Source: a virus
Virus record (IMG/VR): IMGVR_UViG_3300010935_000129
Location: 1-32,542 of that record
DNA length: 32,542 nt
Reading direction: 5' to 3' (one strand)
The position numbers were made by a program, and so were the translations under genes. The first letter of the stretch is position 1. Every line of letters begins with the position of its first letter. Below, piece by piece: positions 11 through 32,542 of the stretch. The notes beneath the pieces are model-generated. The model saw only the letters and a list, made by a program, of their open reading frames with translations. It did no database searches and had not been told where the DNA came from.

Positions 11-50
11 TTTTTTATTTTTTTAAAAACTACTAATACTTCCAATACCT
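11..50. repeat. Left copy of the inverted repeat shared by both window ends
   Basis: Read outward on the minus strand, this 40-nt segment aligns with bases 32504-32542 read outward on the plus strand, with 36 matching columns, three mismatches and one single-base gap. It starts with AGGTATTG and ends with AAAAAAATAAAAAA. The extreme first ten bases continue the A/T tract. It lies just past the stop of the last lysis gene. It could be a terminal inverted repeat, a flanking repeat of the late module, or a low-complexity assembly limit. Confidence 0.75.
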
Positions 51-67
51 TCAATACCTTCAATACC
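43..67 (+). repeat. Short tandem repeats (CAATACCTT units)
   Basis: The 9-nt unit caataccttis present at 43-51 and 52-60, with a third partial copy at 61-67; a degenerate copy (taatacttc) precedes them from about 34. The core CAATAC also occurs three times on the minus strand at the right end of the window, in the same inward orientation. The array is non-coding. It looks like a small protein-binding iteron array, but no binding protein can be identified here. Confidence 0.7.
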
Positions 68-74
68 CAACAAA

Positions 75-413
75 CTATTTCTTATAGTCTACTGCAACCC
101 AATCAGATAGGGCTTTATGGTGTGTTGCGCATAGGTTTAACGAAGTAACAGTATCCGCCCACGCTGACAGCACATCAGCTTTACTTACTGGTGGCGAAGG
201 TAGTAGAGCTGCCTTGTCACAAATAAGCATTTCACTTACGGGCTCCTGCCGCAATATCGTTCCATGTATTGATGAACAGCCCATCAATACAAGTAACAGT
301 AGGACAAGTGCTAGGAATGTTACGCAGTTTCTCGCTACGAATCCTATTCCGCTCAAAACTCGATATAGCACGTTGCATAGAAGCTCGTTCCTTAATAACC
401 CTACCTGTTTCAT
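75..413 (-). CDS. Outer-membrane spanin lipoprotein (o-spanin, Rz1-like)
   Basis: This is the outer-membrane half of the spanin complex, which fuses inner and outer membranes in the last step of lysis. The 112-aa product has an unusually long N-terminus, then a hydrophobic stretch (residues 31-44) ending in a lipobox, L-M-G-C with the lipidated Cys at 46. Ser follows the Cys, which fits outer-membrane sorting. The mature part is about 67 aa and has a short proline patch (LPSPP). The gene begins inside the i-spanin gene in another frame and runs 157 nt past its stop, the classic overlapping Rz/Rz1 layout. The ATG at 413 is chosen because a perfect AGGAGG stands six bases upstream. Two extra Cys in the mature part could form intermolecular disulfides (inference). 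Confidence 0.85.
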   Translation of the reverse strand: MKQVGLLRNELLCNVLYRVLSGIGFVARNCVTFLALVLLLLVLMGCSSIHGTILRQEPVSEMLICDKAALLPSPPVSKADVLSAWADTVTSLNLCATHHKALSDWVAVDYKK

Positions 414-597
414 CTGTTGCCTCCTGTATGATGTCCGCAGCCTCTTGACCAGCAGCTATCATAGCAGCCTCTCTAGTTATTGAAGCTGCTTTAAAATCTA
501 GGGCTGCTACGCCCATGTGAATCCTTATACCAGAGCCTATCCCTAGAGCGTAGGCTATGATACACGACAAAACTAATGTCCTACTCAGAAGTAACAT
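232..597 (-). CDS. Inner-membrane spanin (i-spanin, Rz-like)
   Basis: The 121-aa product has an N-terminal signal anchor (about residues 3-25) and then a long charged helix likely to form a coiled coil (about 35-95), the usual i-spanin plan. Two Cys near the C-terminus (PSTCPTVTC) could form the dimer disulfides known in this class. It would span the periplasm and pair with the lipoprotein encoded by the overlapping gene at 75-413. The ATG at 597 has a GAGGGG site eight bases upstream. It overlaps the end of the preceding small gene by 17 nt. The call rests on topology and on the embedded lipoprotein gene, since spanins diverge strongly in sequence. Confidence 0.82.
   Translation of the reverse strand: MLLLSRTLVLSCIIAYALGIGSGIRIHMGVAALDFKAASITREAAMIAAGQEAADIIQEATDETGRVIKERASMQRAISSFERNRIRSEKLRNIPSTCPTVTCIDGLFINTWNDIAAGARK
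420..425 (-). promoter_or_regulatory. Ribosome binding site of the embedded o-spanin gene
   Basis: A perfect AGGAGG lies six bases upstream of the ATG at 413, inside the i-spanin reading frame. It fixes the start of the embedded o-spanin gene and is one of the strongest Shine-Dalgarno sites in the window. Confidence 0.8.
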
Positions 598-751
598 ATT
601 GCAGCCCCTCGTTATCTATGTTGTACACATCTTCACTAACATCTTCCAGCATGGCGAGCAGGTCTTCAGTTGTCATACTTGGATTATCTCTACGCAGAGC
701 GGAGAATATGTCGAGCTGACTTTCCGTAAGGCTATCCATACTGCTGACCAT
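581..751 (-). CDS. Small acidic protein in the lysis cassette
   Basis: This 56-aa protein is acidic, Ser/Met-rich at its N-terminus and mostly helical in appearance (LTESQLDIFSALRR, then TTEDLLAMLEDVSEDV). It has no membrane segment or recognised motif. I chose the ATG at 751, four bases after the holin stop, because GGGAG lies nine bases upstream; an in-frame ATG at 790 would overlap the holin by 35 nt and lacks a site. It sits between the holin and the i-spanin, overlapping the latter by 17 nt. A lysis accessory role, for example a holin or amidase modulator, is only a guess from position. Confidence 0.6.
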   Translation of the reverse strand: MVSSMDSLTESQLDIFSALRRDNPSMTTEDLLAMLEDVSEDVYNIDNEGLQYVTSE

Positions 752-755
752 GCTA

Positions 756-1097
756 CTATGCTCCCGTGTAGCCTGACATGTACTTGCCAAGACTACGCAT
801 CCAAGGAAGGGCGGCTTCTCTTAGCAGCCAAAACAATAGCGCACTCCGAGCCATGGCTGCTACCATGCCTACAGCAACGCCTATCAGTGCCCCGCTAGCA
901 TCCTGTGCCAGCATGGTGTAGCCAGTAAGCGCACCCAGAACATACGGCACTAGCCTAAACAATATTTGGCTGCGCTCCGCAACAGAAAGCAACGCCGCTA
1001 ACTGTGTTCCTACCACTGAAACCAAGGCTACCCAAAGGATGTCCACTCCGCCTAAGTAGTTCACCCACTCCATAACTAATGTGGATACTTCTTTCAT
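756..1097 (-). CDS. Putative holin, three transmembrane helices
   Basis: Holins form timed lesions in the inner membrane so that the endolysin can reach the cell wall. The 113-aa product has three hydrophobic segments at about residues 18-38, 46-64 and 69-92, as in class I holins, and a short C-terminal tail with Arg/Lys. It follows the amidase by one base and precedes the spanins, the usual position. GGGGAT upstream of the ATG at 1097 overlaps the amidase C-terminus and serves as ribosome site. I recognise no sequence family beyond topology and context; a different small phage membrane protein cannot be excluded. Confidence 0.75.
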   Translation of the reverse strand: MKEVSTLVMEWVNYLGGVDILWVALVSVVGTQLAALLSVAERSQILFRLVPYVLGALTGYTMLAQDASGALIGVAVGMVAAMARSALLFWLLREAALPWMRSLGKYMSGYTGA

Positions 1098-1098
1098 A

Positions 1099-1704
1099 TT
1101 AATCCCCTATTTGCCTAAGTAATTCTATAACACTTTTAAGCACAGCGTCTACCACCATGTTGTGCCTTCCACCCACCAAAAACTGCTTTACCTCCGCCTC
1201 ATTATCCATAAAGAAGGGCTCCAATATAAAGCTTGGGCACTTTGTTTTAGCTAAGAAATAATCTGGGACAGTCCCGTCACCCCAATACCAACCTTCCTGA
1301 CCGCCGTTATCTCTAATAGATAGCGTATCAGCAATAGAACGGCTGGCTCCAGCAGCTTGGCGTGAGCGTACTAAACTGTTTGGGTAGTACATGACGCAGC
1401 AGCCATGCCCCCGTGAGCTATCTCTGTCCATCGGGTCAGTGTGGTCACTATCTGCATTGAAGTGGAGCTCTACCGCTAGTTTGGGTGACTTTTTATTTAT
1501 AGAAACCACTTTGCTTGGAAGCTTACCACTCACTACTGAAGCAGCACAGCCAAGCTTCTTTAGTTCAACAGCAACATCTTTCAACACCGCAGTAGCTACA
1601 TCATACTCATTAAACTGAGGGTAGTGCGGCGACACTTTTCCTTTTTTATCTTTGTGGTGTCCAACGGATAGTACCACATCAAATCTTTCTTTTCTTAGCG
1701 TCAT
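1099..1704 (-). CDS. N-acetylmuramoyl-L-alanine amidase (endolysin, Amidase_3 type)
   Basis: It cuts the bond between N-acetylmuramic acid and L-alanine in peptidoglycan. The 201-aa protein shows the Amidase_3 zinc-site pattern: His16/His17 after the first strand (LSVGHHKD), Glu33 (QFNEYD), His81 (VELHFNA), and a catalytic Glu162 (FILEPFF). It is a single-domain enzyme without a separate wall-binding domain or signal peptide, so export needs the holin, the next gene. The ATG at 1704 lies four bases after the upstream stop, with GAGGAT as ribosome site. It opens the lysis cassette amidase - holin - small acidic protein - spanins. This is the best-defined enzyme assignment at the left end. Confidence 0.92.
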   Translation of the reverse strand: MTLRKERFDVVLSVGHHKDKKGKVSPHYPQFNEYDVATAVLKDVAVELKKLGCAASVVSGKLPSKVVSINKKSPKLAVELHFNADSDHTDPMDRDSSRGHGCCVMYYPNSLVRSRQAAGASRSIADTLSIRDNGGQEGWYWGDGTVPDYFLAKTKCPSFILEPFFMDNEAEVKQFLVGGRHNMVVDAVLKSVIELLRQIGD

Positions 1705-1708
1705 AATA

Positions 1709-1999
1709 TCATCCTCGCATTCCTAAATATTCAACAGTAGTCAAAGGCTGGTCAACTACATTCATGTGCTGCACTACATCTGAAATATCCCAAGGTACGC
1801 GGGCTACCATCGTGTAGCTGCCCCTTGGTAGAACGATGCTGCATTGGTACACAGCGCCAGCTACCTCAATGAAGGGTATACTGGACAATACAACGATGCC
1901 CACACTATCTACAATGTTCGCAGTGATGCTAGAAGAAGCCCCCGCACTAGCCAAAGGGCTAGTGATTACAGCAGTAAACTCTTTATTGCTATACAACAT
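1709..1999 (-). CDS. Small beta-rich virion protein, function unknown
   Basis: The 96-aa product is rich in alternating hydrophobic and small residues and looks like a compact beta-sandwich. It has no transmembrane segment and no family I recognise. The ATG at 1999 overlaps the preceding gene by 11 nt (its stop TAG lies inside the new frame), which suggests coupled translation. It is the last gene before the endolysin and follows the fibre and chaperone-like genes. A role as a small tail or fibre-associated protein is inferred from position only. Confidence 0.6.
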   Translation of the reverse strand: MLYSNKEFTAVITSPLASAGASSSITANIVDSVGIVVLSSIPFIEVAGAVYQCSIVLPRGSYTMVARVPWDISDVVQHMNVVDQPLTTVEYLGMRG

Positions 2000-2495
2000 A
2001 CACTGCGCTCTTTATATCTTGGTATGTCATGGAATCAAGCTGGGCTATCTGTGTCATCATTCTTAGATACACGTATGCCCTAGCTTGAACAGCATCTACA
2101 TGAGCCACCCGAACTTGTGATGCCGTGTGCGGAGACACACCCACATCAGTGACACAAAGGAATGTATCCGACGTGGCGGTATTTGAGCACACAGCTTGGG
2201 CTGTAAGATAGTCGAACGCTTCATTGTCTCCAGAGTAATGGAGAAGAGTTCCTGTGGCAGCACTAAAAAACCCCCCTGTTTGTATGGCTGTTCCTGCACC
2301 CAACCTTATGCGTGCAGTAGCTTTCCTTATTTCTCTTTTCCTAGCTACAATAACAACACTTAGGTCTAACAGGTTCTGCGGTATAGGGCTAGACTGCCAC
2401 ACAATATCTGCGTATTGGGCTCCGCTCCCTGACCATACTGCATCAGGGTACTGAGAAACAAGAATTTCTGCGTATGTTGCTTGCTCTATACTCAT
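1989..2495 (-). CDS. Putative tail-fibre assembly or chaperone-like protein
   Basis: The 168-aa product has a short N-terminal part (SIEQATYAEILVSQYPDAVW) that resembles fibre-assembly-type proteins, then a helix starting with a Lys/Arg cluster (VARKREIRKATARIRL), and a middle part with W-less beta segments and a C-terminal helix rich in Ala and Val (HVDAVQARAYVYLR). The overall order recalls the DUF4376-type phage tail proteins, which usually lie next to fibre genes; this is a weak resemblance by eye. It starts by ATGA overlap with the receptor-binding candidate upstream. If the resemblance holds, it would act during fibre assembly in the cytoplasm or stay bound to the tip. Confidence 0.5.
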   Translation of the reverse strand: MSIEQATYAEILVSQYPDAVWSGSGAQYADIVWQSSPIPQNLLDLSVVIVARKREIRKATARIRLGAGTAIQTGGFFSAATGTLLHYSGDNEAFDYLTAQAVCSNTATSDTFLCVTDVGVSPHTASQVRVAHVDAVQARAYVYLRMMTQIAQLDSMTYQDIKSAVYVV

Positions 2496-3064
2496 TTTAT
2501 ACAGACAAATTTTGCTGCTAAGTATGTGTACTTAGTGCCGTCAGCATCGCCATGCTCAGATTCTGGGGCATCGACATGCCCAGAAGTTAAGTAAGCCTCG
2601 AATCTAAGGTAGGATGGTTGCTGTATATCAAACATACCATACAGCGTGATTATGCCATTCCCGCTAGTAGACGTTGCTAGAACTACGTTAGTAGCCACAT
2701 CAACCAAACGTATATTGCCTTTACCCGCAGCGTGTGAGCTGAAGCTCCAGAGACCAGCAGGAACTAAAAAATCATCCCCTGCTATATTCCCTATGTTGGC
2801 TGGCACAGATACTAGCCTATTAATCGGGCGGGCTCGCCATTCGTCATCGTCAACGGAACCAAAGCTGTTGCGCTCATCAAACAACCACATGGTTGCACCA
2901 GCATGTCCATCGGTACGTAGCGTGCCATCAAGTAAAGCTTCGCTTATTGCGTACACTTCCTTAGCATCTTGCAGGGTAGCAAACTTTCTGCTCCCCCCAC
3001 TTACAATTGTTATCCCAGATACGGGGTCTATGAAATCAGCGCCATCATTAAATACGGTAATCAA
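2492..3064 (-). CDS. Putative receptor-binding protein with jelly-roll-like C-terminus
   Basis: The 190-aa product has a C-terminal region (about residues 90-190) with VPAGLWSFSSHAAG, then VATNVVLATSTSG and an LxGxFDIxxPxYLRF stretch. This matches the strand pattern of the C1q/TNF-like jelly-roll tips common on phage fibres. The residues before it include a surface-exposed acidic loop (SVDDDEWRARP). It starts with TTG at 3064, overlapping the previous stop as TTGA. The TTG is supported by AGGAGAG about six bases upstream. It follows another small fibre-type protein and precedes the chaperone-like gene. Binding to host cell surface sugars or proteins is inferred. Confidence 0.55.
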   Translation of the reverse strand: MITVFNDGADFIDPVSGITIVSGGSRKFATLQDAKEVYAISEALLDGTLRTDGHAGATMWLFDERNSFGSVDDDEWRARPINRLVSVPANIGNIAGDDFLVPAGLWSFSSHAAGKGNIRLVDVATNVVLATSTSGNGIITLYGMFDIQQPSYLRFEAYLTSGHVDAPESEHGDADGTKYTYLAAKFVCIK

Positions 3065-5166: not shown

Positions 5167-5176
5167 AATCGTTCTC

Positions 5177-6286: not shown

Positions 6287-6555
6287 TATAAATCTCCTTT
6301 CTCATGCTTCCGTACCCTCTCTTCAAGTATGGTAAGCCTGTGCTCTATTTTCTTTGTTTCCGTGATGAGTGAGTTTACGTTTATCAACCTGACTTTTACT
6401 TCTGCCATTGACACATTAAGAGCATTCAACTCCATAATAACCTTGCCTTGACCTTCAACGAACCTAATGCCCTGCCAAGACAGTAGCCCAAGTATAACGG
6501 TTACTGCTAGTGTTCTCCAGTGTGTCTCTATAGCCACCTGTTCCTTACTATCCAT
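6286..6555 (-). CDS. Small membrane protein with coiled-coil tail
   Basis: The 89-aa product has one transmembrane segment (about residues 13-32, LAVTVILGLLSWQGIRFV) and then a continuous charged helix with heptads (about 40-86), ending in a basic stretch. The ATG is placed at 6555, forming TGATG with the giant gene stop; a TTG one codon earlier is less likely. The topology fits a small holin-like, antiholin-like or spanin-like protein, yet the lysis cassette lies 4.5 kb away. It might also be a membrane anchor used with the giant protein. I recognise no specific family. Confidence 0.6.
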   Translation of the reverse strand: MDSKEQVAIETHWRTLAVTVILGLLSWQGIRFVEGQGKVIMELNALNVSMAEVKVRLINVNSLITETKKIEHRLTILEERVRKHEKGDL

Positions 6556-9500
6556 CAAAATACCTCTTGGAAAACCTTGTGATACTTACGCAGTTTAGCA
6601 GCATCATCCCCTTGTTTCTTGTACAGAGCATCCAGCTTAGCACGAAGCAACTTGCTAGGCAGTTTACGTTTATTTTTATTATATTCAATAATACTTTTAT
6701 TTATATTTCTGACCCTGCCCATAATGTATTTTATATCTGAGGCACCTACTAAGTATTTCTTATTATCTTTTTCGTACTCCCTAGCCTTCGCAATGTCACC
6801 ATTCTTTTTAAGGAAGGCTATAGTAGCTTGTATTGTATTGACCTTATTCAGCATAGCATATCCCATATCTTTATCTGCTGACGACTTAGACCAGCTCTCA
6901 CCCAAGAACCTAGTCAAACCAAGTATCTTGTATTCGGATAGTTTAGATTCTGGGCGAGGAACTCCTCGCAACGCTGCATCTGCTGCATTAGATGCCTCAA
7001 GTATGTAGCTACCAAAGCTTCCTAAGTACCCCCTAATCATGTGGTCAATTAGGATAGGTGATTTTATTGGGTCAGTAATAGTACCTAAGTCAGGGACTGC
7101 TTTAGTTACTTGCGCAATCCCTTTTCCAAGTGCGCTAGTATTTGGCAAAACCTGCTCGCTTGGCTCTATGCCTTTAATATACGTGGGAACTATTTCTCTC
7201 CCTGTAAAAATAGACTTATTGGCTGCGGCTTCAGCATACGGTAAAGCAACCTGTGGTAGCGGAGCAATAGCTAGCGTGCTGACAGTGGCAAAGGCAGCGC
7301 GTTCCATAAGCAAGCCGATGGTTCCGTCATATAGAGCAAACTGTGCCAACCTCTCAGCAGCCGTCGCTATTATACCAAGCTCAAAAGGCTTAGGAAAAAC
7401 AAGGTGATTGACACCCCACTCTTCTGGCAAAAAGAAATGCCAGTACATATCCTTCTGTGGCTCAGTCAAACGCTTATACCGTTCATCCCTATAGTTATTT
7501 ACGGCAAGACCAAAGCTCATAACGAACATTGCTCCAGTGACTTTAGCCATCCTTGCCTTATGCTCTTTTGCCCCAGTGTACAACCTAGCCCCACCTTGGA
7601 ATCTGGCATTCAAGAAAGGCATCGAATCTATGGCTGCAAGCATAGCACCGTTGTCGCCATGTTTACCGAAGTCAAGTAGGTCACGGGCTAGGAACCCTGC
7701 TTGCTTCCTAGATAAACCCTCCTCCATGGAACGTCGGTACACAGCTAGTCTAGCTATGTTCTCTGCTATGTTAGCTCCTCTTTCTGCTGTAGCCAATACA
7801 GTACCAAAAATACCCCTGCTGGCAAACCTACCCGCCGCAGTTTTTTTAGCCGCAACAGAAGCGTCAAAGGATATGTCGCCAGTTTGCGAATGCCCCGCTG
7901 TTGGTAGCGCACCAGAAAGCAACGCCTCTTGGTAATACTTATCCTTCTTCACAGCACTGCCGAAGCCGCGTATGAAGTCAGACATTCTCAGGTTTATGTC
8001 TGTGGTAGCGTATGCGGTAAGCACATCCCTTGCAGTAGACACTACCCAAAAAGCTGGGAAGGCAACTATAGTTCTAACAAGTGTCCTGCTCGCTGCTTTG
8101 ACAAAATTAGGCAGCGTACTTCGCCCACTTGTTAGACCTTTTATAGCCCGAAGAATATCTGCATCAATAACTTTTCTGTGTACACGTTTTCCATTACGCA
8201 TAAAGGTAACAATATCTTCACCCTTGGGTGCGATAAGGGCGGAGAACTCAACTATGCCATCCCGCTGCTCCTTAGATAGCTTTCCAATATCTATACCTTG
8301 TTTACGTAGACCTGACGCAACATTGCTGGCGGTAGCTGCTGCATTTTGCAGGGGAACAGCTTCTTCCCATATGCCATCACTATACACAGGCTTAACCTTA
8401 TGCCCAAGAAGCTCCATAGCTTTGGCATCCTCAAAGCTAAGAGGCATTTCCTTTCCATTGAACTTATGTACTGGCATGCCAGTGTCTTCATCAACTTTTA
8501 CCAAAGCTTCATCAATGGATTTCATAGCTCTAGTAGAGGCTATTAACTGTGTGATGCCTGTAATATTCCTGTGCATATTGTCAAGAACATTCGCTATCTG
8601 AATATTGCTATTATGCAGGGTATTTATGCCACCACTCAAGTTAGTACCTTTGGCAGCTTTCGGTGCGCCAATGAACCCTTCCATCTCGCGGTACATTGGA
8701 ATGTAATCACCACTGGATACAAGAGCATCAAACATACCTTCATTGATAGCACCTACTTCTTTAGCTACACCGAGCAAGGATGTGTTAAGCTCATAGTACG
8801 CTTCAGCAGCCGCATCAATATCAGCAAATTTTTCATGTTCCTCCGCCATTTTAATTGTTGCGGTAAGCTCAGCACGGGTAAACAGCCCTTTGCCATCTTC
8901 GGCAAACAAGCCATCTGGGTTACCCATGGTTGCACCCTCTTCCCTGCCAATACGCAAAGCTCTCTTCGCTATCATGTATGCTAACACGGTGTCCTGTATT
9001 TCATGGACGGGGGCAAGTATATCGTAAAGACCCTTTGTTCCTACCACAGGAACAATATCACCAGCATCATCTATTTTAATCTGACCGTGCTCTAGGATGA
9101 AGTACGCAATCTTAGAGGAATGCACTGCTTCTGTGGCACTCATATAAGATTGCGCGTGTGTTCTTGATGATTCGCCTGTCTTATACCTATCAAGCTCAAG
9201 CAACGGGTATAGTCTATCTACAACAGAAGTTACCGCTGATACCTTATTGTCCTTGCTCCACTGCTTCCAGCCACCGCTAACCACCGTACGCCATTTCTCT
9301 GCGGATGTCATCGTGGGAGAGCCAAGCTTATCTAGCATGTCCGCGTAGTCTTTTATATCAGCCTCAGAAACATGTGACAGCTCACCTTTTTCTACAGAGG
9401 TCATAAAGTCCCTATACATTTTAGTGTGTCCTTTGCTGTGCATAACTGAAGCTTCAGCATCTAACACAGCCGCGTATAAGGCGTTAGGCTCAGCAAGCAC

Positions 9501-12500
9501 ATTGGCATCTGCAAAACCACCAGTAGATGCCATGTGCATTATTCCTTCAGATGAAACAAAACCAAGACCTTTGAAATAGTTTCCTACCTTCTCAATATAT
9601 TCAACAATCTTGTTAAATATATTAGATAAGGTACCACCCACAAACAGGTCTCCACTTCTATATAGCTGGAAAGCGTAAGCAGCAGCTTCATCGGGAGATG
9701 CTATAGCTTCGTTTGCTGCATCATCCATGCCCAAAGAGCGTAGCCTTTCGATTAAGTTATTGTGGTGCTTACTACCTTTATTATATGCTCGTCGCATAAC
9801 GCTCAGGTTAGCTGGGGATAGCACATTAGCAGAGAGGGCATGAAACATTTCATGGTCAAGAGTTTCACGCAATGCACTAAGTGGCTGCTTGGTAGATATG
9901 CGTATCAGCCTTCCAGCAGTATCATACTCCCCAAGTGATTCTAAGTTAGCATCCAATGTAACAATAATATTTTTGCCAATAACGCTATTGATACGCTCAA
10001 CAAGAGACTCTGTGGTTGTTGCTGATATGCCGTTTACTTCAGCAGTCCTTGCGAACAGGGCATCTCTAAGTCTGGACTCTAAAATACGTGGTTTAACAGT
10101 AGCTTCCTCTGAGCCACGGAATTTAGCAGCGTCTAATATGCTGTGCATAGCTGAAAGGTAGGCAGTATGTGCATCCATCTTAGTGGGCGAAAACCCTACC
10201 TTACCAGAATCTGCAAACTCACCAGTAAGTACACGATGGGTTGCATCAGCAATATTTGTTATGTACTCACTATTGAAGTCCTCGTCGCTAACAAAAACGC
10301 CAGCGTCTTCAAACAACATGCGCTGAACCCTAAATGAGACATCTTCCCATTCGACGGCACGCATTGCTTCCGTAGTGGTCAGAGCATCAAACTCTTTAGT
10401 GATTCCTTTGCTTGGGTTGCCTACAGGATATTCAGTCTTTTTGCCTAGTGCACCCTGTCGTCTACTATCGCCATAGCGGCGGTGCATGAACTGCTCTGTA
10501 ATGGCGTGCGCCATCTCGTGTACAATTCTCCAAGTCTTGGTGTACTCTGGGTCATTAAACGCTCCGCTACTTTCAAACGGGTTATATATCCAGACCTTTC
10601 CTTTATCGTAGCCCTGTGCTTTTAGGCGGGGGGCTTTGAACGTATCTTTGTCAAAAGAGAACGTGTCATGCTCGAAGCCAAACTTGTCCATCATAGTTCT
10701 CAAGTTGGCAGAGACATTATCCCACTGCGCCTTAGTTGGTGCGTCCGTTGGTAGGGGAGAGGCGATGAGCTCTTTTGGAATAGGGTATCTCTTCAGTTGC
10801 TCTTCAGTATTCTTACCAGTGAACTCACCGAATCTTGCCGCAGTATGTCCAAACTGGGTAGGGTCAAGTGGCGTTCCCGCCGCGGCGAATTTATTCGCTT
10901 CATTTGCTGCCTTCTTATCTAGTGCGCCAAGCTCAGGTTGAGATTGGGCAGCAACATGCGCCTCTATGTCCTGAATAGGAGAGGTAGCTACTGCATGGCT
11001 GGGTGTTGCATATCCTTCACGACCTATGGCTTTCCCTTTCACAGGTATGATAGATGCTGTCGCACCTTCCGCTGAGTTTATACTGTCAGCAACAGCACTA
11101 AATATAGCTTGGTCAGCAGCAAGAACCTGCTCAGAACCCCCAGCCTCAACCTGCGCCTTAACATCTTTGTTGAAACGAGAAGCAAGCTCTGGGAACGATA
11201 CAGCGGTTAGCCCCGTGTAGTTACCAGATGAATCCTTGGTAAGGGTCGCACCAGATACACCCTGTTTAGTAAGCTCCTCTACATAGGCAACAGCAGCCTC
11301 TTTAGATAGCGGTGCATCAAAGGAAACAACTAGGGATGGTCTTGCCACATACTTTCCCGAAGCATCAGTTAGCGTGTCTGTGGGTTGTGTTATAATAACA
11401 TCATCTTGGTTGTACTCTTTAGCTACGTTTGATACAGCACGAGCAACATCCTCACTGCTACCAAAAACTTCTGTATTAGTGGAAGTCTCAGCCGCACCGT
11501 ATACACCAACAGTGCTTGATGATTTTGTTACATCAACACCTTCTTTTGTGCTAATATTGCGAAGTGCAGCAGAGAATTTATCTACTACTGCTCCGCTAGC
11601 ATCTGTCACTTGAGTAGGTGATATTCCTATTGTAAAAGCCTCACCGCCAGTTTGTGTATCTGTGGCAGAAGTATCTGTGGCAGAAGTATCTGTGGTAGAA
11701 GTATCTGTGGTAGAAGTATCTGTGGCAGAAGTATCTGTGGCAGAAGTATCCTGTATGGTTATGCCAAGCCTAGCCGCAGCTTTTACTCCTGCACCCAAAC
11801 CGTCTGCAAGATGTGAGTATAGGTAGGCAGAAACATTAGGTTCTACTGAAGCGGCTATATTTCTAAAGCTGTCATATGGGTTAGCTTTATCAAAAACAAG
11901 GTCATTACTGGACTGCTCAGACTTAGTAATTATTAATGCGTCAAGACCTTCAATAGCATCATCAACACGGGCATCAATGCTTCCCTGTTCCTGAAGAACT
12001 TTTTCTGCGGCGTATAATGAAACACCCGCATCGCTTCCAGAACTAGGGTCTAGCATTCGTACGCGTAGTTCGCTAAGTGTCGAGGAAAGTTCCTCTGGCG
12101 AAGAGTCTCGGATAGCTGCGAGTGCTGTCTCTCTGTCAGTATCAATAGCAGCTATTGCGTCAGCAAGAGTTCGTTCTTGTTTGTCACTACTAAGAATACT
12201 TTTAGCTGCCGTCGTGGTAACATCGAGAGCGCCGTCAGTAATAGCCCCAGCTATGAAAGCATCTTTAAGACGCTTAGTGCTCATATCGAAGTTACCTGTG
12301 CCAGCGTACCTTCCTGATTCTTGGGCAAGCTCATCGCCCACTTCAGAAAGTCCACCGAGACCTGCGCCTATGGTAAGTGTCTTAGCAGCCCCACCGCGTG
12401 TGGCTTTCTTTGTTCCATCCAGAACGCCCTTTGCTCTACCTATGGCGAATTTAGTGGGAAGGTAGTTTGCTGCTGCGGATAGCACAGCAGTAGTTGCACC

Positions 12501-13100
12501 AGCGCGTAGTGCGTCGTTAGTAGTACCACCTTCGTCCCTGACACCGTGCATAGTATTACCAGCATTAGACAGTACAGTTGGCGCAAGTAGCGTTGCTGTA
12601 TTCCCTTTTTTAATAATAGCGTTGCCTGTTTTAGATAGAACCTTGCCAGCTTGTTTGGCATGCGAAGAGTTTTTCGCTATCATGGGTAGAAGCTTTCCAC
12701 CATACTTAACAACAGCCCCTGTTGCCAGCTTAGCGCCAAGACCTGCACCCGTTGAAACAAGAGCCCCGCCTAGCTGACCTGCTATATTACCCAAGTAAGA
12801 GGCGGTATCATTCACTGCGTGCCCGAACGTATCTGTACGAACATCGTCCGTAGAGGATGTAACGCCTTCCATGGCTGCTTGAGACTCTTTAGCTAAGTTA
12901 TCAGCACGATGTGCAGCATCTGCGGCTGCCACTTTATCGCCAACAACCTCATTACCGACCTGCCTAATACCTTGGAACCCACCACTTATTTGGTTACTTC
13001 CCGAAGTATAGCCAGCGGATACACTATCTAAAAAGCCCTTTCTTGGCTTAGGTTTTCCCTTCCTGCGCGGTGGCTCAGGTAGCTGAGTAAATATGCTCAC
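6555..13100 (-). CDS. Giant polyvalent internal virion protein, two HExxH motifs, LPD38-like region
   Basis: This 2181-aa protein takes a fifth of the window. N-terminal 1-330 is Gly/Ala-rich with amphipathic segments and a GLSEVGDELAQESG element typical of injected phage polyvalent proteins. Residues about 452-482 are an (S/T)(A/T)TDT pentapeptide repeat. A first zinc-peptidase-like region has WRIVHEMAHA with HExxH at 861-865, followed by YGDSRR and a RAVEWE element. A second has TLDHEMFHAL with HExxH at 1083-1087. GDYIPMYRE lies near 1464, and residues about 1655-1915 match the LPD38 pattern (FPAFWVVSTARDV, PFLNARFQGG, FPKPFELG). Such proteins are packaged, enter the cell with the DNA and modify host targets (known for the class). 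It starts with GTG in a GTGA overlap. Confidence 0.85.
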   Translation of the reverse strand: MSIFTQLPEPPRRKGKPKPRKGFLDSVSAGYTSGSNQISGGFQGIRQVGNEVVGDKVAAADAAHRADNLAKESQAAMEGVTSSTDDVRTDTFGHAVNDTASYLGNIAGQLGGALVSTGAGLGAKLATGAVVKYGGKLLPMIAKNSSHAKQAGKVLSKTGNAIIKKGNTATLLAPTVLSNAGNTMHGVRDEGGTTNDALRAGATTAVLSAAANYLPTKFAIGRAKGVLDGTKKATRGGAAKTLTIGAGLGGLSEVGDELAQESGRYAGTGNFDMSTKRLKDAFIAGAITDGALDVTTTAAKSILSSDKQERTLADAIAAIDTDRETALAAIRDSSPEELSSTLSELRVRMLDPSSGSDAGVSLYAAEKVLQEQGSIDARVDDAIEGLDALIITKSEQSSNDLVFDKANPYDSFRNIAASVEPNVSAYLYSHLADGLGAGVKAAARLGITIQDTSATDTSATDTSTTDTSTTDTSATDTSATDTQTGGEAFTIGISPTQVTDASGAVVDKFSAALRNISTKEGVDVTKSSSTVGVYGAAETSTNTEVFGSSEDVARAVSNVAKEYNQDDVIITQPTDTLTDASGKYVARPSLVVSFDAPLSKEAAVAYVEELTKQGVSGATLTKDSSGNYTGLTAVSFPELASRFNKDVKAQVEAGGSEQVLAADQAIFSAVADSINSAEGATASIIPVKGKAIGREGYATPSHAVATSPIQDIEAHVAAQSQPELGALDKKAANEANKFAAAGTPLDPTQFGHTAARFGEFTGKNTEEQLKRYPIPKELIASPLPTDAPTKAQWDNVSANLRTMMDKFGFEHDTFSFDKDTFKAPRLKAQGYDKGKVWIYNPFESSGAFNDPEYTKTWRIVHEMAHAITEQFMHRRYGDSRRQGALGKKTEYPVGNPSKGITKEFDALTTTEAMRAVEWEDVSFRVQRMLFEDAGVFVSDEDFNSEYITNIADATHRVLTGEFADSGKVGFSPTKMDAHTAYLSAMHSILDAAKFRGSEEATVKPRILESRLRDALFARTAEVNGISATTTESLVERINSVIGKNIIVTLDANLESLGEYDTAGRLIRISTKQPLSALRETLDHEMFHALSANVLSPANLSVMRRAYNKGSKHHNNLIERLRSLGMDDAANEAIASPDEAAAYAFQLYRSGDLFVGGTLSNIFNKIVEYIEKVGNYFKGLGFVSSEGIMHMASTGGFADANVLAEPNALYAAVLDAEASVMHSKGHTKMYRDFMTSVEKGELSHVSEADIKDYADMLDKLGSPTMTSAEKWRTVVSGGWKQWSKDNKVSAVTSVVDRLYPLLELDRYKTGESSRTHAQSYMSATEAVHSSKIAYFILEHGQIKIDDAGDIVPVVGTKGLYDILAPVHEIQDTVLAYMIAKRALRIGREEGATMGNPDGLFAEDGKGLFTRAELTATIKMAEEHEKFADIDAAAEAYYELNTSLLGVAKEVGAINEGMFDALVSSGDYIPMYREMEGFIGAPKAAKGTNLSGGINTLHNSNIQIANVLDNMHRNITGITQLIASTRAMKSIDEALVKVDEDTGMPVHKFNGKEMPLSFEDAKAMELLGHKVKPVYSDGIWEEAVPLQNAAATASNVASGLRKQGIDIGKLSKEQRDGIVEFSALIAPKGEDIVTFMRNGKRVHRKVIDADILRAIKGLTSGRSTLPNFVKAASRTLVRTIVAFPAFWVVSTARDVLTAYATTDINLRMSDFIRGFGSAVKKDKYYQEALLSGALPTAGHSQTGDISFDASVAAKKTAAGRFASRGIFGTVLATAERGANIAENIARLAVYRRSMEEGLSRKQAGFLARDLLDFGKHGDNGAMLAAIDSMPFLNARFQGGARLYTGAKEHKARMAKVTGAMFVMSFGLAVNNYRDERYKRLTEPQKDMYWHFFLPEEWGVNHLVFPKPFELGIIATAAERLAQFALYDGTIGLLMERAAFATVSTLAIAPLPQVALPYAEAAANKSIFTGREIVPTYIKGIEPSEQVLPNTSALGKGIAQVTKAVPDLGTITDPIKSPILIDHMIRGYLGSFGSYILEASNAADAALRGVPRPESKLSEYKILGLTRFLGESWSKSSADKDMGYAMLNKVNTIQATIAFLKKNGDIAKAREYEKDNKKYLVGASDIKYIMGRVRNINKSIIEYNKNKRKLPSKLLRAKLDALYKKQGDDAAKLRKYHKVFQEVF
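11656..11745 (-). repeat. 15-nt tandem repeat inside the giant gene
   Basis: Six head-to-tail copies of a 15-nt unit (plus strand gtatctgtggcagaa) fill this stretch, with a single c/t difference in the two central copies and a five-base partial copy after it. The unit is a multiple of three and encodes a Ser/Thr-Ala/Thr-Thr-Asp-Thr pentapeptide, so copy-number changes keep the frame. It probably forms a flexible linker between the N-terminal part and the peptidase-like regions. Confidence 0.9.
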
Positions 13101-14506: not shown

Positions 14507-16533
14507 TATGTAAATGCCTTGCTAGAGAGTTCCAGCATTGTGTTGTTAGCTGATAATGCTGAGCCAGCCACCCGTGATGCAATCTCTGTTGATGCAGTGA
14601 ACGCGCCAACAGACATTTCACCAAGCTTAATTGCTCTGTCCACGTTAGCTTTCGAGGATTGTAGCGTTATCTCTGCGTTAGACTTAGCAGCGTCAAGAGC
14701 TAATCGTTGGTTATTTATGGATAGAGTATCAAGACGGCTAGCCTCTTGAAGGCTAGTCGCATACGTTGCAGTAGCTACCTTGTACTCAGACAACAAATTA
14801 CCTACCTCTGCTTCGTGCGCAAGTAATGTCATCCTAGCTATATCTGAAGTAAGTTTTTGCGATTGAATAGCTAGCTCATTCGTGCGAAGAATAGCTTGCT
14901 GCTGCTCAGAATCTATTCGTGCTCGTACTTCTTGCCCACCAATCTCAGCCACATAAGCGCTAAGCTTAGCCTTATCTATATCTGCGGAAGCTAGAGCAAC
15001 CTTGACAGTGGCATCAACCTTAGTGGATGCTAAATCAACAGCAAGTTTATTTCCTGCTAGTGTAGAATTATAAATATCCACATTCAGCTTATCATGCTGT
15101 TGAACAGCCGCTACTCCAGCAAGCTCAGACTTATAAAGGTCTAGGGCTGACTTATCACTCTCAAGGCTCAGTGCCCTTGCAGATATTACAGTTTTATACT
15201 GTTCAAGAAGAACGCTATTGGTATCAATCTGTTTTGTGAACACACGCACATCTGTTGCATATATCTCTGCCTTCAAAGCCTCAGCTTTTTGCTGCGCCTC
15301 ATACACGTGAAGTATATTATCATTGGTTGCTGCTATGGCATTATTGACATCATAGCTTGTGCGCCAAGCAGACAGTTGCTGTGTATTGTAGTCTAGCTCC
15401 GCCTTGGCATATCCTAATCTAATCTGCTCAAAGTCATCCCTGCTCTTAGCAAGTGATATAGTTAAATCAAAAAATTTATACTCAAACTCTGCTAAAGTAA
15501 CTGCAACCTTGTACCCAATCTCTACGGAAGCCATATGGTACTTATTAAGCATATCAATAAGCTGCACGCCGCCCGATATAGCTGTGGCTACGTCAGCCCT
15601 ATTCATACGAGCCTCTTCTGAGACTACGTTTGCATACGTTTGTGCAAACTCTCTTCTTGCATCGTTGGCTGCCCGTCGGGAAGCTGCTAGAAGTAGTCCG
15701 CTTGGCGCAGGAAAGCCGCGAGCGGATAGTTCACGAGCAGAGCGTTCACCTGCGGCAGCTATAGCATCCGCCATCTTTCCTTCACCAGCTTTTAAAGCCA
15801 GCGTCTCCTCTGAGGTAGCGAATCCGTTACCTGAAATACCTCTACGTAGTGCATCGCGCATCGCAGAATCTAGCTCGTCTACAGAAATAGGCTCTGGCAC
15901 AAAGTCGAAAGCGCTGCTAGGAACTTGGTCTGGCATAGCCGAAGCTAGTGTCGCTGCTATGCCAATGAAACTTGATGTGGGAGTAAAGGGAGAGACCTCA
16001 GTATACGGCAAGTAAACTGGGTCAGTGATGGTGGCTAGGAGCGGCTTTGTCGGTGGCGCGTAAGCCGCAAGAACTGGTTCATTAGCTATCGCTGCCTTTA
16101 GCGAAGCAGTCCCGTTCAGCACAGGAACTGACGGCAATGTTACTGTTGTAGCTGAAGGTGCAGTTGCTGTGGTTATCGTCGGTAGTGAGGCTAGTAGGTC
16201 AGCAGCATTTATGCTCACATCCTGTGTGGCTGGGCGTTCAGGAAGCGTCAATCCTACAGGAGCTGATAGCGTCCCAAGCGTCACGTTCCCAGTTGTAGGT
16301 AAGGTTGGGACGTTTGGTAGGTTCGGGGGAATAGGTGTTGCTGCTGGCGTTCCAGTAGCCAAGCGGGGAGGTGAGTAATCAATAGTGGGTTGCTCCAGTG
16401 TTGGAACAAACGCCAAAGCATTCCCTACGTTAGCCTTTATTTCAAGAAGACCAGCCTTGGCAGAAGACACGAAAGTGTCTGCTACACTAGCCGCATTAGC
16501 CTGAGCGGAGGAAATTTCAGATGCTGTAGTCAT
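14506..16533 (-). CDS. Large helical virion structural protein
   Basis: The 675-aa product has three parts: a short Ala/Ser helix (1-42), a proline- and threonine-rich extended region (about 44-215) and a long, almost uninterrupted helical region (about 215-675) with heptad-like Ala/Leu/Lys patterning. Proteins with the segment type SARELSARGFPAPSGLL followed by a long helix are encoded in several phage tail clusters; I recall the type but no established name. It could be a tail needle, internal ejection or tail spine protein. A tape measure is unlikely, since no tail-tube genes are present. ATG at 16533 follows the previous stop by nine bases, with only a weak ribosome site. Confidence 0.65.
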   Translation of the reverse strand: MTTASEISSAQANAASVADTFVSSAKAGLLEIKANVGNALAFVPTLEQPTIDYSPPRLATGTPAATPIPPNLPNVPTLPTTGNVTLGTLSAPVGLTLPERPATQDVSINAADLLASLPTITTATAPSATTVTLPSVPVLNGTASLKAAIANEPVLAAYAPPTKPLLATITDPVYLPYTEVSPFTPTSSFIGIAATLASAMPDQVPSSAFDFVPEPISVDELDSAMRDALRRGISGNGFATSEETLALKAGEGKMADAIAAAGERSARELSARGFPAPSGLLLAASRRAANDARREFAQTYANVVSEEARMNRADVATAISGGVQLIDMLNKYHMASVEIGYKVAVTLAEFEYKFFDLTISLAKSRDDFEQIRLGYAKAELDYNTQQLSAWRTSYDVNNAIAATNDNILHVYEAQQKAEALKAEIYATDVRVFTKQIDTNSVLLEQYKTVISARALSLESDKSALDLYKSELAGVAAVQQHDKLNVDIYNSTLAGNKLAVDLASTKVDATVKVALASADIDKAKLSAYVAEIGGQEVRARIDSEQQQAILRTNELAIQSQKLTSDIARMTLLAHEAEVGNLLSEYKVATATYATSLQEASRLDTLSINNQRLALDAAKSNAEITLQSSKANVDRAIKLGEMSVGAFTASTEIASRVAGSALSANNTMLELSSKAFT

Positions 16534-20348: not shown

Positions 20349-21197
20349 TTATTGTATAGGGACGAACTCTACGAGAACGACAATATCTTGCGCAAATGCT
20401 TGTATGACTGGCACCAGATTAACCATAGCATACTGCGCAGGGGGTGTAGATATGGTTATGGCTGGTATCTCTGCTAGTACGCCAGTGACTAGCACGTCTA
20501 TCTGCACAGTTGGATACTTAGCTATAAATCTGGTATTGGCTGTGGTAACGGCTGGGTTAGTAACAAAACTAGCTACATTGGTGGCGGCAGGAAGTGCAGC
20601 GGCGCCTGTTACTGCGGGAAGGGTTGCAATAGGTGTGCCTGTAGCAGACGTGACTGTTATTGTTGGCATATCTATTACGTAAGTACCCCCAACGGAACCG
20701 TCCACGATAATAAAGGCAGTGACACTTTTGGCTATATAGCCGTGCAGCCACTCGCCTACATTTACTTGTACACCTGCTATGCCCGTGGCGGGAACAGGAA
20801 TAACGTGCTTACTTACTTTAGTTTGAAAAGGGCGAGCAAGTTCTTTTATTGTTGTGTCTTCAATAGTTCCTGTTGCGGCATGTCGGAGAACCTCGGCAGT
20901 GATGCGCAAAGAAAGCTCTGTTCCAGCAGCCCATGCCCTAGCGGATGTGCCTTCAGTGGCACGAACCGCAGTGTAGTTGTTACCCACACCAAGAGTAGTA
21001 TTGTTTGTATGAAGCTCAACTATCTCATAGAAATTACCATCTGTTATGGTAGCAATAAGTGGCGCAGTAGGAGATATGATACTTGGTATACCAGCAGCAG
21101 TGTGTCTGCTAGTCAAAGATATTGTGTTTTCAGCTATGCCTAGAGGCGTACGTATCATACTTGTCCAATAGTTACCTATCGTAATATATTGAGCCAC
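20349..21197 (-). CDS. Tail protein with fibre-docking-type N-terminal domain
   Basis: The 282-aa product carries at residues about 24-104 a domain with NFYEIVELH, YTAVRATEGTSARAW and AAGTELSLRITAEVL. The pattern R-x-x-E-G-T-x-A-x-x(W)-A-A-G-x(4)-R-x-T-A is frequent at the N-termini of phage fibres and also occurs in the 571-aa protein encoded at 21953-23668. The remainder is Val/Thr/Ala-rich and beta-prone, with an Ala-rich centre. It starts with GTG at 21197, four bases after the previous stop, without a strong ribosome site. The most likely role is a structural tail protein that binds or carries fibres. Confidence 0.65.
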   Translation of the reverse strand: MAQYITIGNYWTSMIRTPLGIAENTISLTSRHTAAGIPSIISPTAPLIATITDGNFYEIVELHTNNTTLGVGNNYTAVRATEGTSARAWAAGTELSLRITAEVLRHAATGTIEDTTIKELARPFQTKVSKHVIPVPATGIAGVQVNVGEWLHGYIAKSVTAFIIVDGSVGGTYVIDMPTITVTSATGTPIATLPAVTGAAALPAATNVASFVTNPAVTTANTRFIAKYPTVQIDVLVTGVLAEIPAITISTPPAQYAMVNLVPVIQAFAQDIVVLVEFVPIQ

Positions 21198-25698: not shown

Positions 25699-25712
25699 AC
25701 TCTCTCCTTAAT

Positions 25713-25739
25713 AAAAAAAGGGCGCGTATGCGCCCTTTT
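25713..25739 (-). terminator. Intrinsic terminator after the head genes
   Basis: Read on the minus strand there is a GGGCGC/GCGCCC stem extended by four A-T pairs, with a four-base loop, followed by seven T. This is a strong rho-independent terminator directly after the capsid and decoration genes. It lies inside the otherwise continuous late operon and only 14 bases before the next start codon, so leftward genes depend on read-through or antitermination. Confidence 0.9.
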
Positions 25740-25775
25740 AAGTTGTCCAGCACACATGGTGTTGCTATGTGTTAT

Positions 25776-27309: not shown

Positions 27310-27313
27310 ATTG

Positions 27314-27321: not shown

Positions 27322-27351
27322 GTTTTTAAGTACAGCCCTCTTGCGCATTTA

Positions 27352-27367
27352 GTCGCTAATTGGCGAC
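27352..27367 (-). other. Small hairpin in the leader of the capsid gene
   Basis: GTCGC and GCGAC form a five-pair stem with a six-base loop in the 86-nt gap before the capsid gene. No T-run follows on the minus strand, so it is not a terminator. It could be an mRNA-stabilising or processing structure in the capsid leader. Confidence 0.4.
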
Positions 27368-27395
27368 AGCGTAAGGCTAAGCTTTTGTTATATCT

Positions 27396-27575
27396 TTAAC
27401 AAGTGTTTTTAGTTTGGGTTATTTTTACATCGCTTGGAGCATCGACACAAAGACGAACGCTCCTGCCAGATTTACGTAAGGGTTCTATGGTAATCGTGTA
27501 GGTTCCTACTTCAGACGGAGCAGGAACCTCTAAGACAAGCGTGCTGCCATATTTTATTTCTGTGACTAAAGGCAT
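27396..27575 (-). CDS. 59-aa protein between scaffold and capsid genes
   Basis: This short gene starts at ATG 27575 in a TAATG overlap with the scaffold stop and ends with TAA at 27396-27398. The product begins PLVTEIKYGSTLVLEVPAP and has a beta-sandwich-like pattern (VGTYTITIEPLRKSGRSVRL), with two Cys near the end. There is no independent ribosome site; coupling to the scaffold gene is expected. Its place between scaffold and capsid suggests a small head protein or an assembly factor. I recognise no family. It is easily missed because of its length; the tight coupling and the otherwise unexplained 180-nt gap support it. Confidence 0.65.
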   Translation of the reverse strand: MPLVTEIKYGSTLVLEVPAPSEVGTYTITIEPLRKSGRSVRLCVDAPSDVKITQTKNTC

Positions 27576-28591
27576 TATTCGTTAAGGTACGTATCTAATT
27601 GCTTAGGAGTAAGCTTAGATATTGCATCTTCAAGTGCAGAGCCATCAAGATTATCTAGGTGAGAGAACTCGCCTTTGGATGTATTTGGTTTAGCAGCGGG
27701 GGCTTTAGCAAGGGTCTTTGTTTTTTTGCCCGCTTCTACTTGCTTCTTCTTAGCATCCTTGCTGACATCCTTGTTAGGTTTCTTCTCAGACTCTACATCT
27801 TTGCTCTTCGTATGGAAGAGCTTACTAATCTGAGTATGGACACGCTTCGCTGCTTCGCGGAGAATATCTTGGTTACTCATGGAATCAGCATCATCACCAC
27901 CAGCAATCTCTTGGATGTTGGCATTTAATGCACCAAACAAGGCTGGGTTTTCGTTACTGTTGAACACGGGGTTGGCGCGGATAAATGCGTTAGCATCTGA
28001 GTTCCACTGAGCAATCATAGCTTTCTCACCTTGAGCAGCTTGGTTGCGCATAACGGTTACTTCAGTGTGTATGTTATTTAGTTCAGAGTTAATCTTGTGG
28101 TAGGCGCGAGTGTAGTCAACAAGTTCCATCTCGCCATCACCGACCTTGGTGGCTAGTGTTTCAAGTTCCGCTTCAAGTTCGGTGATGCGTTCTTCATGTG
28201 CTTCAATTTCTTCAACAGGGGGAATGGCTACTGTAACTACGGGTTCTGCTAACTCAAAAAGCGAGGCTTCAGCAAGAGCTTCAACCATGGTTTCTTTGCG
28301 GTCATCTACTTCTTCGTCGGCAGTTTCATCTTCTGTTTCTGCGCCATCTTCATCTTCGTCGGTGTCATCATCTTCATCGGTATCTTCATCGGTATCTTCA
28401 TCGGTAGCTTCATCTTCGTCGGTGTCATCATCTTCTTCAGTTTCAGAAGTGCCTTCGTCGATGTCATCGTCTTCTTCCTTGGAATGCTCGGTATCATCGG
28501 CTTTTGATTTTGTTTCATCATCATCCTCCTCCGCAAGGGCAGCTAGCTCTTCGTCGGTCAATATCTCACCCATCAATACTCGTGTGGTCAT
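27575..28591 (-). CDS. Capsid scaffold protein with acidic N-terminal repeat
   Basis: The 338-aa product has the composition of a scaffold that guides capsid assembly inside the procapsid and leaves before packaging. Residues about 14-98 are almost only Asp, Glu and Thr. A coiled coil follows at about 125-190 (IEAHEERITELEAELETLA), then a basic Lys-rich stretch (262-305) and a conserved-looking short C-terminal module FSHLDNLDGSALEDAISKLT at 309-328. Such a helix-turn-helix end usually binds the capsid protein. AGGAGA lies six bases before the ATG at 28591. Position between portal and capsid is standard. The opposite charge of the two halves is notable. Confidence 0.82.
   Translation of the reverse strand: MTTRVLMGEILTDEELAALAEEDDDETKSKADDTEHSKEEDDDIDEGTSETEEDDDTDEDEATDEDTDEDTDEDDDTDEDEDGAETEDETADEEVDDRKETMVEALAEASLFELAEPVVTVAIPPVEEIEAHEERITELEAELETLATKVGDGEMELVDYTRAYHKINSELNNIHTEVTVMRNQAAQGEKAMIAQWNSDANAFIRANPVFNSNENPALFGALNANIQEIAGGDDADSMSNQDILREAAKRVHTQISKLFHTKSKDVESEKKPNKDVSKDAKKKQVEAGKKTKTLAKAPAAKPNTSKGEFSHLDNLDGSALEDAISKLTPKQLDTYLNE
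28348..28435 (-). repeat. Repeats in the acidic part of the scaffold gene
   Basis: A 28-nt sequence occurs twice without change, at 28348-28375 and 28408-28435. Between the two copies lie 12-nt units of the type cttcatcggtat. They encode the Asp-Glu-Asp-Thr tract of the scaffold. All units are close to multiples of three, so slippage can change the length of the acidic region without breaking the frame. Confidence 0.85.
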
Positions 28592-28612
28592 GTTAAGTCT
28601 CCTGTCTTTATG

Positions 28613-30640: not shown

Positions 30641-30989
30641 GCTTATCTCCTCGGACTACTGCTAGCTCTTCTTCACTGCTGCGAACTTCATTTCTATATG
30701 AGTTTCGGCAGTGGTTCTCTCCAAACACGAAGTCAATTACGGCTTGGAATTTTGTGGCGCTATAGCTACCATTTATGGAAAGGTAGTGGGTGTACGAAGA
30801 TACTGTCCAGTCTGGCTTTCCGTACAGGTAGCTTCCGCCAAACTGGTCAAGACCAATGGCTAAGTTGAAAAGGTACTCTTTTCTGGAAATGGCTGAACGC
30901 TTGGCAATAATCAACTTGTAAGGTATGACTAAAGGTGCGGTGACTGCTACGATTATTGCTGCTATAAAGACAAGAAATAAGTTTTTCAT
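30633..30989 (-). CDS. Small membrane-anchored phage protein
   Basis: The 118-aa product starts with one hydrophobic helix (about residues 3-28, LFLVFIAAIIVAVTAPLVIP), which may be an anchor or a signal sequence. The rest resembles a family of small phage proteins that I recall by the pattern L-D-Q-x(6)-G-x-P-D-x-T-x-S-S and, near the end, I-D-x-x-F-x(4)-H-C-x-x-S-Y-x-x-E. Here these read as LDQFGGSYLYGKPDWTVSSY and IDFVFGENHCRNSYRNE. Its function is unknown to me. It lies between terminase and portal, 19 bases after the terminase stop, with no clear ribosome site, and overlaps the portal start. Confidence 0.6.
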   Translation of the reverse strand: MKNLFLVFIAAIIVAVTAPLVIPYKLIIAKRSAISRKEYLFNLAIGLDQFGGSYLYGKPDWTVSSYTHYLSINGSYSATKFQAVIDFVFGENHCRNSYRNEVRSSEEELAVVRGDKHG

Positions 30990-31008
30990 GGGGCAATACT
31001 ACGTTATA

Positions 31009-32460
31009 CTACGCTGTTCGCCAACTTGTATTTCTACTCACACGCCTTCTTTTGTTCCTAACAAGCTTGGCAATAACAGGTCGGGCGTATGTCATGGATA
31101 AGGCATCCGCTCTATCTGGGGATGGAAGACCTTGTGACTTCATATCCTTTTTGCTGACAAGAATCATCCTGTTTTTCCCGTCAAAGAAATACTCTTGGGC
31201 TATTAATTGCTCTGAAAGGTCAGCATCCTTGGGGATAGAGCACGTCTCACCTAGATGCTTGCGCATTAAGTCCCACATCTCAGCACGCTTATTGGCGTAC
31301 TTATCTTCCTCAATAGCTGTATTTGCACCATTGACTTCCTCAACAGCATGCCCCATCTGGCGTAGCCTATCAACAACACCACCACCCACGCCGCCACCAT
31401 CAATGAAAACAGCGTCAGGGTTCATTGCTATAATCTGCTCGGATACTTTATCTGACAGTCCCATGGTATCAATGCCTTGGAAAGATAGGCACTTGTTGTG
31501 CTTCCTGCCACGGCGTGTATAAATAATGCTTTCATCATCACCATACCGTGCGACATCCACTGCCATAATTAATGGCTGACCTTCAACATCCTCCAGTGTA
31601 AGCTCCGTTGACATTGCCTTCTCAACAGCATCGCGGGGAATTAGCTGACAGCTACCTGATATAGGAAACTCTCCACGGATACGGATACGTACGAAGTCAC
31701 TATCAAAGCCATAATCGTCTATCCACTCCTTAATCTGCTTATCACTAGCCATCACAGCAAATCTGGAATCTACAGTTGTGCCATCCCAACGATGCTTTAA
31801 TTTGTTGAAGCAGTCATAGAATGCGCCGCTGTTCCTTGTTGGGTTTCCAAAGGCGCACCAGATGGCTCCGTTTGTTGTCATGGCTCCTTCACAAGTGTCC
31901 CATATACATTGGTCAATACCAGATGCTTCATCGAAAATAATAAGAACATTCTCATCATGGGTTCCAGCAAAAGCTTCAGGATTATTTGCAGACCAAGGAA
32001 TGGCATGGGCAACCCATGTCTCTGGGTGCTCATTGAAATAAAAAGATGTTGCAGTCCAAGTGAACCAGTCTTTATTTATGAGTAGCTTGTGCCACTTAGC
32101 AAGTTCCCGCCATGTCTTTGTTTTAAGTTGGTTCTGTGTGTTGGCAGTTACAACTATCTGCGGGTGGGGGCGACAGGAAGAGAACCACTGTACTAGCCAG
32201 CTAACAACTGCGGACTTACCAACACCATGCCCAGATTTAACTGCTTCACGGATTGCTGCTTTTACATCTTTGTTTGATGATGTTGAGGAGATGGCATCAC
32301 GTATTTTCTTTAGTACACCCTCTTGCCATACATCGGGCTTGGTGTGGTCAGCAAGTGCCGTCCCTTCTTTTCCCCATGGGTATGCGTAAAGAACAAATCC
32401 CCATGGGTCATCTCGGTAGGCAGAAATATCTTTGGCTAATTGAAGCTGGTCAGTAGGCAT
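31009..32460 (-). CDS. Terminase large subunit (packaging ATPase and nuclease)
   Basis: It pumps DNA into the procapsid and cuts concatemers. The 483-aa protein has the usual N-terminus (DDPWGFVLYAYPWG, 17-30), a Walker A motif SGHGVGKSA (76-84, Lys82), a Walker B motif VLIIFDEAS (172-180, Asp177-Glu178) and a coupling segment FGNPTRNSG near 204-212. The RuvC-like nuclease follows with acidic residues in VDVARYGDD (301-309), FIDGGGVGGG (352-361) and SPDRADAL (447-454). The first ATG at 32460 has no Shine-Dalgarno site. A sigma70-type promoter is placed so that transcription would start at this ATG. No small terminase is encoded in the window. It is the first gene of the late operon here. Confidence 0.93.
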   Translation of the reverse strand: MPTDQLQLAKDISAYRDDPWGFVLYAYPWGKEGTALADHTKPDVWQEGVLKKIRDAISSTSSNKDVKAAIREAVKSGHGVGKSAVVSWLVQWFSSCRPHPQIVVTANTQNQLKTKTWRELAKWHKLLINKDWFTWTATSFYFNEHPETWVAHAIPWSANNPEAFAGTHDENVLIIFDEASGIDQCIWDTCEGAMTTNGAIWCAFGNPTRNSGAFYDCFNKLKHRWDGTTVDSRFAVMASDKQIKEWIDDYGFDSDFVRIRIRGEFPISGSCQLIPRDAVEKAMSTELTLEDVEGQPLIMAVDVARYGDDESIIYTRRGRKHNKCLSFQGIDTMGLSDKVSEQIIAMNPDAVFIDGGGVGGGVVDRLRQMGHAVEEVNGANTAIEEDKYANKRAEMWDLMRKHLGETCSIPKDADLSEQLIAQEYFFDGKNRMILVSKKDMKSQGLPSPDRADALSMTYARPVIAKLVRNKRRRVSRNTSWRTA

Positions 32461-32466
32461 GTGAGT

Positions 32467-32494
32467 ATTGTATTAGGCATGTTTTTTCAGTCAA
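32467..32494 (-). promoter_or_regulatory. Putative sigma70 promoter before the terminase gene
   Basis: On the minus strand TTGACT (32489-32494) and TACAAT (32467-32472) are separated by 16 bases. Each box differs from consensus in one position. With the usual distance, transcription starts at base 32460, the A of the terminase ATG. Two CAATAC-type repeats lie just upstream of the -35 box, as an activator site would. Confidence 0.6.
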
Positions 32495-32503
32495 GGCAAT
32501 TAG

Positions 32504-32542
32504 AGGTATTGCAAGTATTGGCAGTTTTAAAAAAATAAAAAA
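32504..32542. repeat. Right copy of the inverted repeat shared by both window ends
   Basis: This 39-nt segment, read outward on the plus strand, aligns with bases 50 to 11 read on the minus strand: AGGTATTG, then AAGTATT, then AGTTTT, then AAAAAAATAAAAAA, with three mismatches and one gap. It lies upstream of the terminase promoter. It includes GTATTG at 32506-32511 and 32515-32520, nine bases apart; a third GTATTG at 32465-32470 overlaps the -10 box. Confidence 0.75.

Follow-up and report, generated by a model that had tools for sequence, protein, structure and literature searches.

Inverted elements of 9-bp phased repeats and A/T tracts at both ends of a podovirus late-module contig may bracket a missing early module

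Iteron origins, such as those of plasmids and the ori of phage lambda, are built of short phased repeats that adjoin an A/T tract. Mycobacteriophage L5 carries stoperators, which are repeated short operator sites located intergenically at gene borders. In the Bcep22-like podovirus DC1, the lysis genes come last in the late module, with the spanin in final position, and integrase, recombination and replication genes together with the small terminase are situated between lysis and the large terminase gene (TerL). The genome of JC1, another member of the Bcep22-like group, is reported to be circularly permuted and terminally redundant (PMC9144972). We found no description in the open-access literature of paired 9-bp inverted elements that bracket the early module of a phage.

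The stretch of DNA analysed here (the window) is an entire IMG/VR record of 32,542 bases. All its assigned genes are encoded on the minus strand, the terminase large subunit being the first and an Rz-like spanin the last of them. Both ends of the window are of low complexity, and each carries an intergenic element composed of the following features, listed together with the adjoining genes:

1-29, no strand: A/T tract at the left contig end, including an 8-bp tandem repeat of TTTTTTAT, about 2.9 copies at 3-25
11-50, plus strand: left copy of the inverted match, from the alignment
35-67, plus strand: 9-bp tandem array of AATACCTTC, 3.7 copies, intergenic, beyond the last late gene
75-413, minus strand: Rz-like spanin, last gene of the late module
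31009-32460, minus strand: terminase large subunit, first gene of the late module
32467-32494, minus strand: promoter-like TTGACT-16-TACAAT just inside the right copy, directed toward the terminase; no more than chance predicts (0.8 sites for the scanned stretch)
32504-32542, minus strand: right copy of the inverted match, from the alignment
32506-32520, minus strand: intergenic pair of GTATTG units in 9-bp phase, upstream of the terminase
32525-32542, no strand: A/T tract at the right contig end

The original prediction placed an A/T tract on the outer side and CAATAC-type repeats on the inner side of both copies, and this order holds: the tracts occupy 1-29 and 32525-32542, and the inner units are phased by 9 bp. 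In the left array AATAC starts at 35, 44, 53 and 62, in the right one GTATT starts at 32506 and 32515. The pattern AATAC-N4-AATAC occurs four times in the window, where 0.07 occurrences are expected, and only at the two ends (35-66 on the plus strand, 32506-32519 on the minus strand). The layout typical of iteron-type origins, phased short repeats adjoining an A/T-rich stretch, is thus present at these ends. An Rfam search returned no match.

Exact alignment of 11-50 with the reverse complement of 32504-32542 yields 36 identities, 3 mismatches and 1 gap (score 58), which agrees with the predicted inverted match of about 40 columns and 36 identities and lies far above the controls. Dinucleotide shuffling of the two 80-base ends, repeated 2000 times, gave at most 38, and the next-best place for the left end within the window scores 28. 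When 103 whole IMG/VR contigs were scored identically, the end-to-end inverted score did not exceed 23. Part of the score of 58 is contributed by the A/T tract common to both ends, TTTTTTATTTTTTTAAAA, whose 18 nt form the longest exact shared stretch (left 11-28, right the last 18 bases).

One alternative is a low-complexity coincidence: intergenic stretches that are A/T-rich and contain short tandem repeats would look alike without being related, and the assembly would have stopped in both by accident. Low complexity of both ends is consistent with it, and breaks at A/T tracts would by themselves select A/T-rich ends. Moreover, when the A/T tract is left out, the score of the inner part drops to 27, a value equalled by 33 of 20000 shuffles. 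The similarity of the inner part is therefore above chance but modest, so the claim that the match is not low complexity only stands for the inner part, at a modest level. Because of this modest similarity, phasing and position carry much of the weight. It is the confinement of AATAC-N4-AATAC to the two ends, together with the control contigs, none of which (0/103) has a comparable A/T tract at its end or a score above 23, that makes us consider coincidence unlikely.

Inverted repeats at contig ends are also a known signature of fold-back chimeras, and the ends of the window fit this signature of an amplification or assembly artefact. A fold-back would, however, give an exact complement, whereas the two copies differ by 3 mismatches and 1 gap. 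The exact stretch of 18 nt is not flush with both ends, being 10 bases out of register relative to them, and on the inner side the copies adjoin distinct genes, each in its proper place. An exact fold-back, named in the original prediction as something that would overturn it, is thereby rejected, and we find an artefact of this kind scarcely credible. The same shortness and lack of flushness make a break at a k-mer repeat unlikely; a k-mer overlap of 18 exact bases, out of register, was considered and rejected. The earlier suggestion of a repeat at which assembly stopped accordingly survives only in a loose sense, failure of assembly within the A/T tracts being likelier. No direct terminal repeat was found at the window ends, as had been noted before.

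Gene content points to the nature of the record. The PHROGs scan took in 30 of the 32 genes and recognised head, connector, packaging, tail and lysis functions, the remaining genes being of unknown function or matchless. None of these 30 genes was recognised as having a replication, regulatory or small-terminase function, and on this ground the record is very probably a fragment. Comparison with relatives suggests that it covers about half of a larger genome. The portal shares 36-39% identity over most of its length with those of PBC5, DC1, BcepMigl and others, and its best relatives are PBC5, Skulduggery, DC1, BcepMigl and similar podoviruses with genomes of 57-63 kb. Like the Bcep22/PBC5-type podoviruses, the window encodes related portal and head proteins (the head protein matches phrog_334), a very large virion protein and a late module ending in lysis genes. 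The genomes of that type reach 57-63 kb and contain an early module; the record has 32.5 kb and no recognised early genes. The viral contig G001, which is syntenic, has early genes immediately upstream of TerL and on its strand, among them a helicase-like gene identified by its sequence and not by family search.

Several further observations concern individual genes. The terminase (31009-32460) has no Pfam match at 0.01, and its best match in a named phage is that of a Methanomicrobiales virus (48%); set against the Bcep22-like affinity of the portal, this suggests a mosaic. The virion protein of 2181 aa (6555-13100) carries an LPD38 domain close to the C terminus; at 11656-11750, within the region of this protein, the DNA contains a 15-bp tandem repeat. 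The acidic protein encoded at 27575-28591 is of unknown function, its match to a family called ATPase being a weak one of repeat type. Between two structural genes, at 25708-25741, a GC-rich hairpin with T-runs resembles, by eye, an intrinsic terminator inside the late operon.

A fragment of this kind bears on whether the inverted copies could be true terminal inverted repeats of a linear molecule, one of the options raised originally. The match does lie at both extremes with an offset of just 10 bases, as if both ends were slightly truncated. Fixed linear ends are nevertheless not expected, since isolated relatives are longer (57-63 kb) and JC1 is circularly permuted. Further, the gene content is that of half a phage, the repeat is imperfect, and neither a terminal protein nor a protein-primed polymerase nor a telomere resolvase was recognised in this record (30/32 genes against PHROGs). 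We regard linear termini as very unlikely. A related reading would make the record a complete replicon: a tailed phage would have its genome in two segments, and this one, encoding the structural proteins, would carry either one palindromic origin, opened within its A/T core, or terminal inverted repeats, recognised in trans by an initiator from the second segment. This we hold to be extremely improbable. The option of an invertible or movable late module did not find support: no recombinase or transposase was recognised among the 30 genes, and no relative with an inverted module was noticed in an unsystematic look.

The occurrence of the same repeat in related genomes, which had been named as a check, was addressed in 34 relatives, and neither end sequence was present within 1.5 kb upstream of TerL in any of them. 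Inverted flanks did not stand out in DC1, Mwe-JY07 (partly covered) or Atu_ph08, PBC5 not being among the genomes scored. As far as could be tested within the relatives compared, the end element thus appears not to be a family trait. The closest relative, IMGVR_UViG_3300044576_000007, begins inside TerL and reaches neither border. To reach beyond the late end we looked for relatives of two proteins, the endolysin and the 2181-aa protein; none turned up, for the latter in a pattern search of viral contigs. Relatives in bacterial genomes were distant ones only, and a contig bearing the missing early module did not come to light. The exact pattern of the end sequences had no match among viral contigs in one scan and a single A/T-rich match, in an 82.8-kb contig, in the other. 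Only marginal matches were obtained against a phage collection.

Scans for 9-bp arrays of GTATTG and GTGTTG returned many coding or low-complexity matches and a smaller set of intergenic ones. Among the latter are arrays at module borders in three unrelated contigs, G008, G009 and G005. The first of them (IMGVR_UViG_3300037780_000078, a record of 43,876 bases) contains two inverted array copies 19 kb apart, at 16150-16470 and 35750-36000 (L239-L241), with a score of 72 for the inverted pair and a shuffle maximum of 30. These copies bracket DNA polymerase, primase and helicase genes. One of them is located one short gene upstream of TerL (L172), the second adjoins another helicase gene and not the end of the late module. 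Because this phage is unrelated to that of the window, the arrangement is a parallel and not a homology. Judging by its layout, pairing inverted 9-bp arrays at the borders of modules may be a design that recurs. In G009 (L186), inverted arrays with TTTTTTAAAA lie between a VapE-like helicase gene and a terminase-bearing block.

In two unrelated contigs, 9-bp arrays are found at or just beyond the 3' end of VapE-like helicase genes (L186 1710-1920, L166 752-790). A general link between the arrays and VapE-like helicases was seen in G009 and G015; it was absent beside GTGTTG arrays and was dropped.

In G005 (L237), a single element near a terminase-like block consists of inverted 9-bp arrays that flank an A/T core; the terminase genes of this block were recognised from sequence and not by family search. 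At about 6560-6860 of L237 (about 20640-20940 of G005), this imperfect palindrome of GTGTTG units with an A/T core, at the early/late border, looks origin- or operator-like. This contig lends some plausibility to a different geometry for the window, in which a circular molecule of about 32.6 kb, either a deleted genome or a separate structural segment, was cut open within a single palindromic origin-like element. Inverted arms at contig ends would be the simplest outcome of a circle broken in a hairpin, and the joined ends do fold into a long hairpin (z -7.6). Yet genes for replication, regulation and the small terminase were not recognised, so that a circle of this kind could not represent a normal member of the phage family, and the ends show no end-to-end overlap. 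We judge such a circle decidedly unlikely.

Taken together, we propose that the record is an incomplete contig, probably the late half of a podovirus genome, and that its ends belong to two related inverted intergenic elements bracketing a missing early module. The parent would be a Bcep22/PBC5-type podovirus with a genome of roughly 50-60 kb. Each contig end would then be the outward-facing portion of one intergenic element. One element would lie a short way upstream of the terminase gene, the other, oppositely oriented, shortly after the lysis genes, so that on a circular map the pair would bracket the early module. Each element would consist of a 9-bp phased array of GTATTGNAN adjoining an A/T tract. 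Assembly presumably stopped inside both A/T tracts, poor coverage of a pure A/T stretch being the likely cause of both breaks.

Binding by a phage-encoded DNA-binding protein is the likeliest role of these elements, and two possibilities may be envisaged. Firstly, a replication initiator could act at an origin-like site, where the iterons would be bound and the A/T tract opened. Secondly, a regulator could use the elements as operators at the early/late border. Among the options raised originally, the border arrays in unrelated phages and the inverted pair of G008 most favour a regulatory region shared by both sides of the operon, although the element was not found upstream of TerL in the 34 relatives. 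If a matched pair does bracket the early module, it would provide a handle on the start of replication or on the switch from early to late genes. The case also advises caution, as a contig that ends in inverted repeats may have been broken within intergenic elements and need not stop at genome termini.

With regard to known systems, the G008 pair resembles the window in having GTATTG units in 9-bp phase and two inverted copies, one of them close upstream of the terminase; it differs in its GC-rich flanks, in having no long A/T tract and in the presence of both unit orientations within each copy. The Bcep22-like podoviruses DC1, JC1 and PBC5 share with the window the portal, the head proteins and the order of the late module; unlike it, they are complete at 57-62 kb, and no inverted flanks were found in DC1. 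Like the L5 stoperators, the elements of the window are repeated short intergenic sites at gene borders, whereas the arrays here occur at two places only, are accompanied by an A/T tract and have no known repressor gene. Finally, in contrast to iteron origins, the window has no recognised initiator gene, its unit measures 9 bp, and two inverted copies are located at the two ends of a module. With these origins the elements share short phased repeats joined to an A/T tract, and by this analogy an origin role may be suggested for them.
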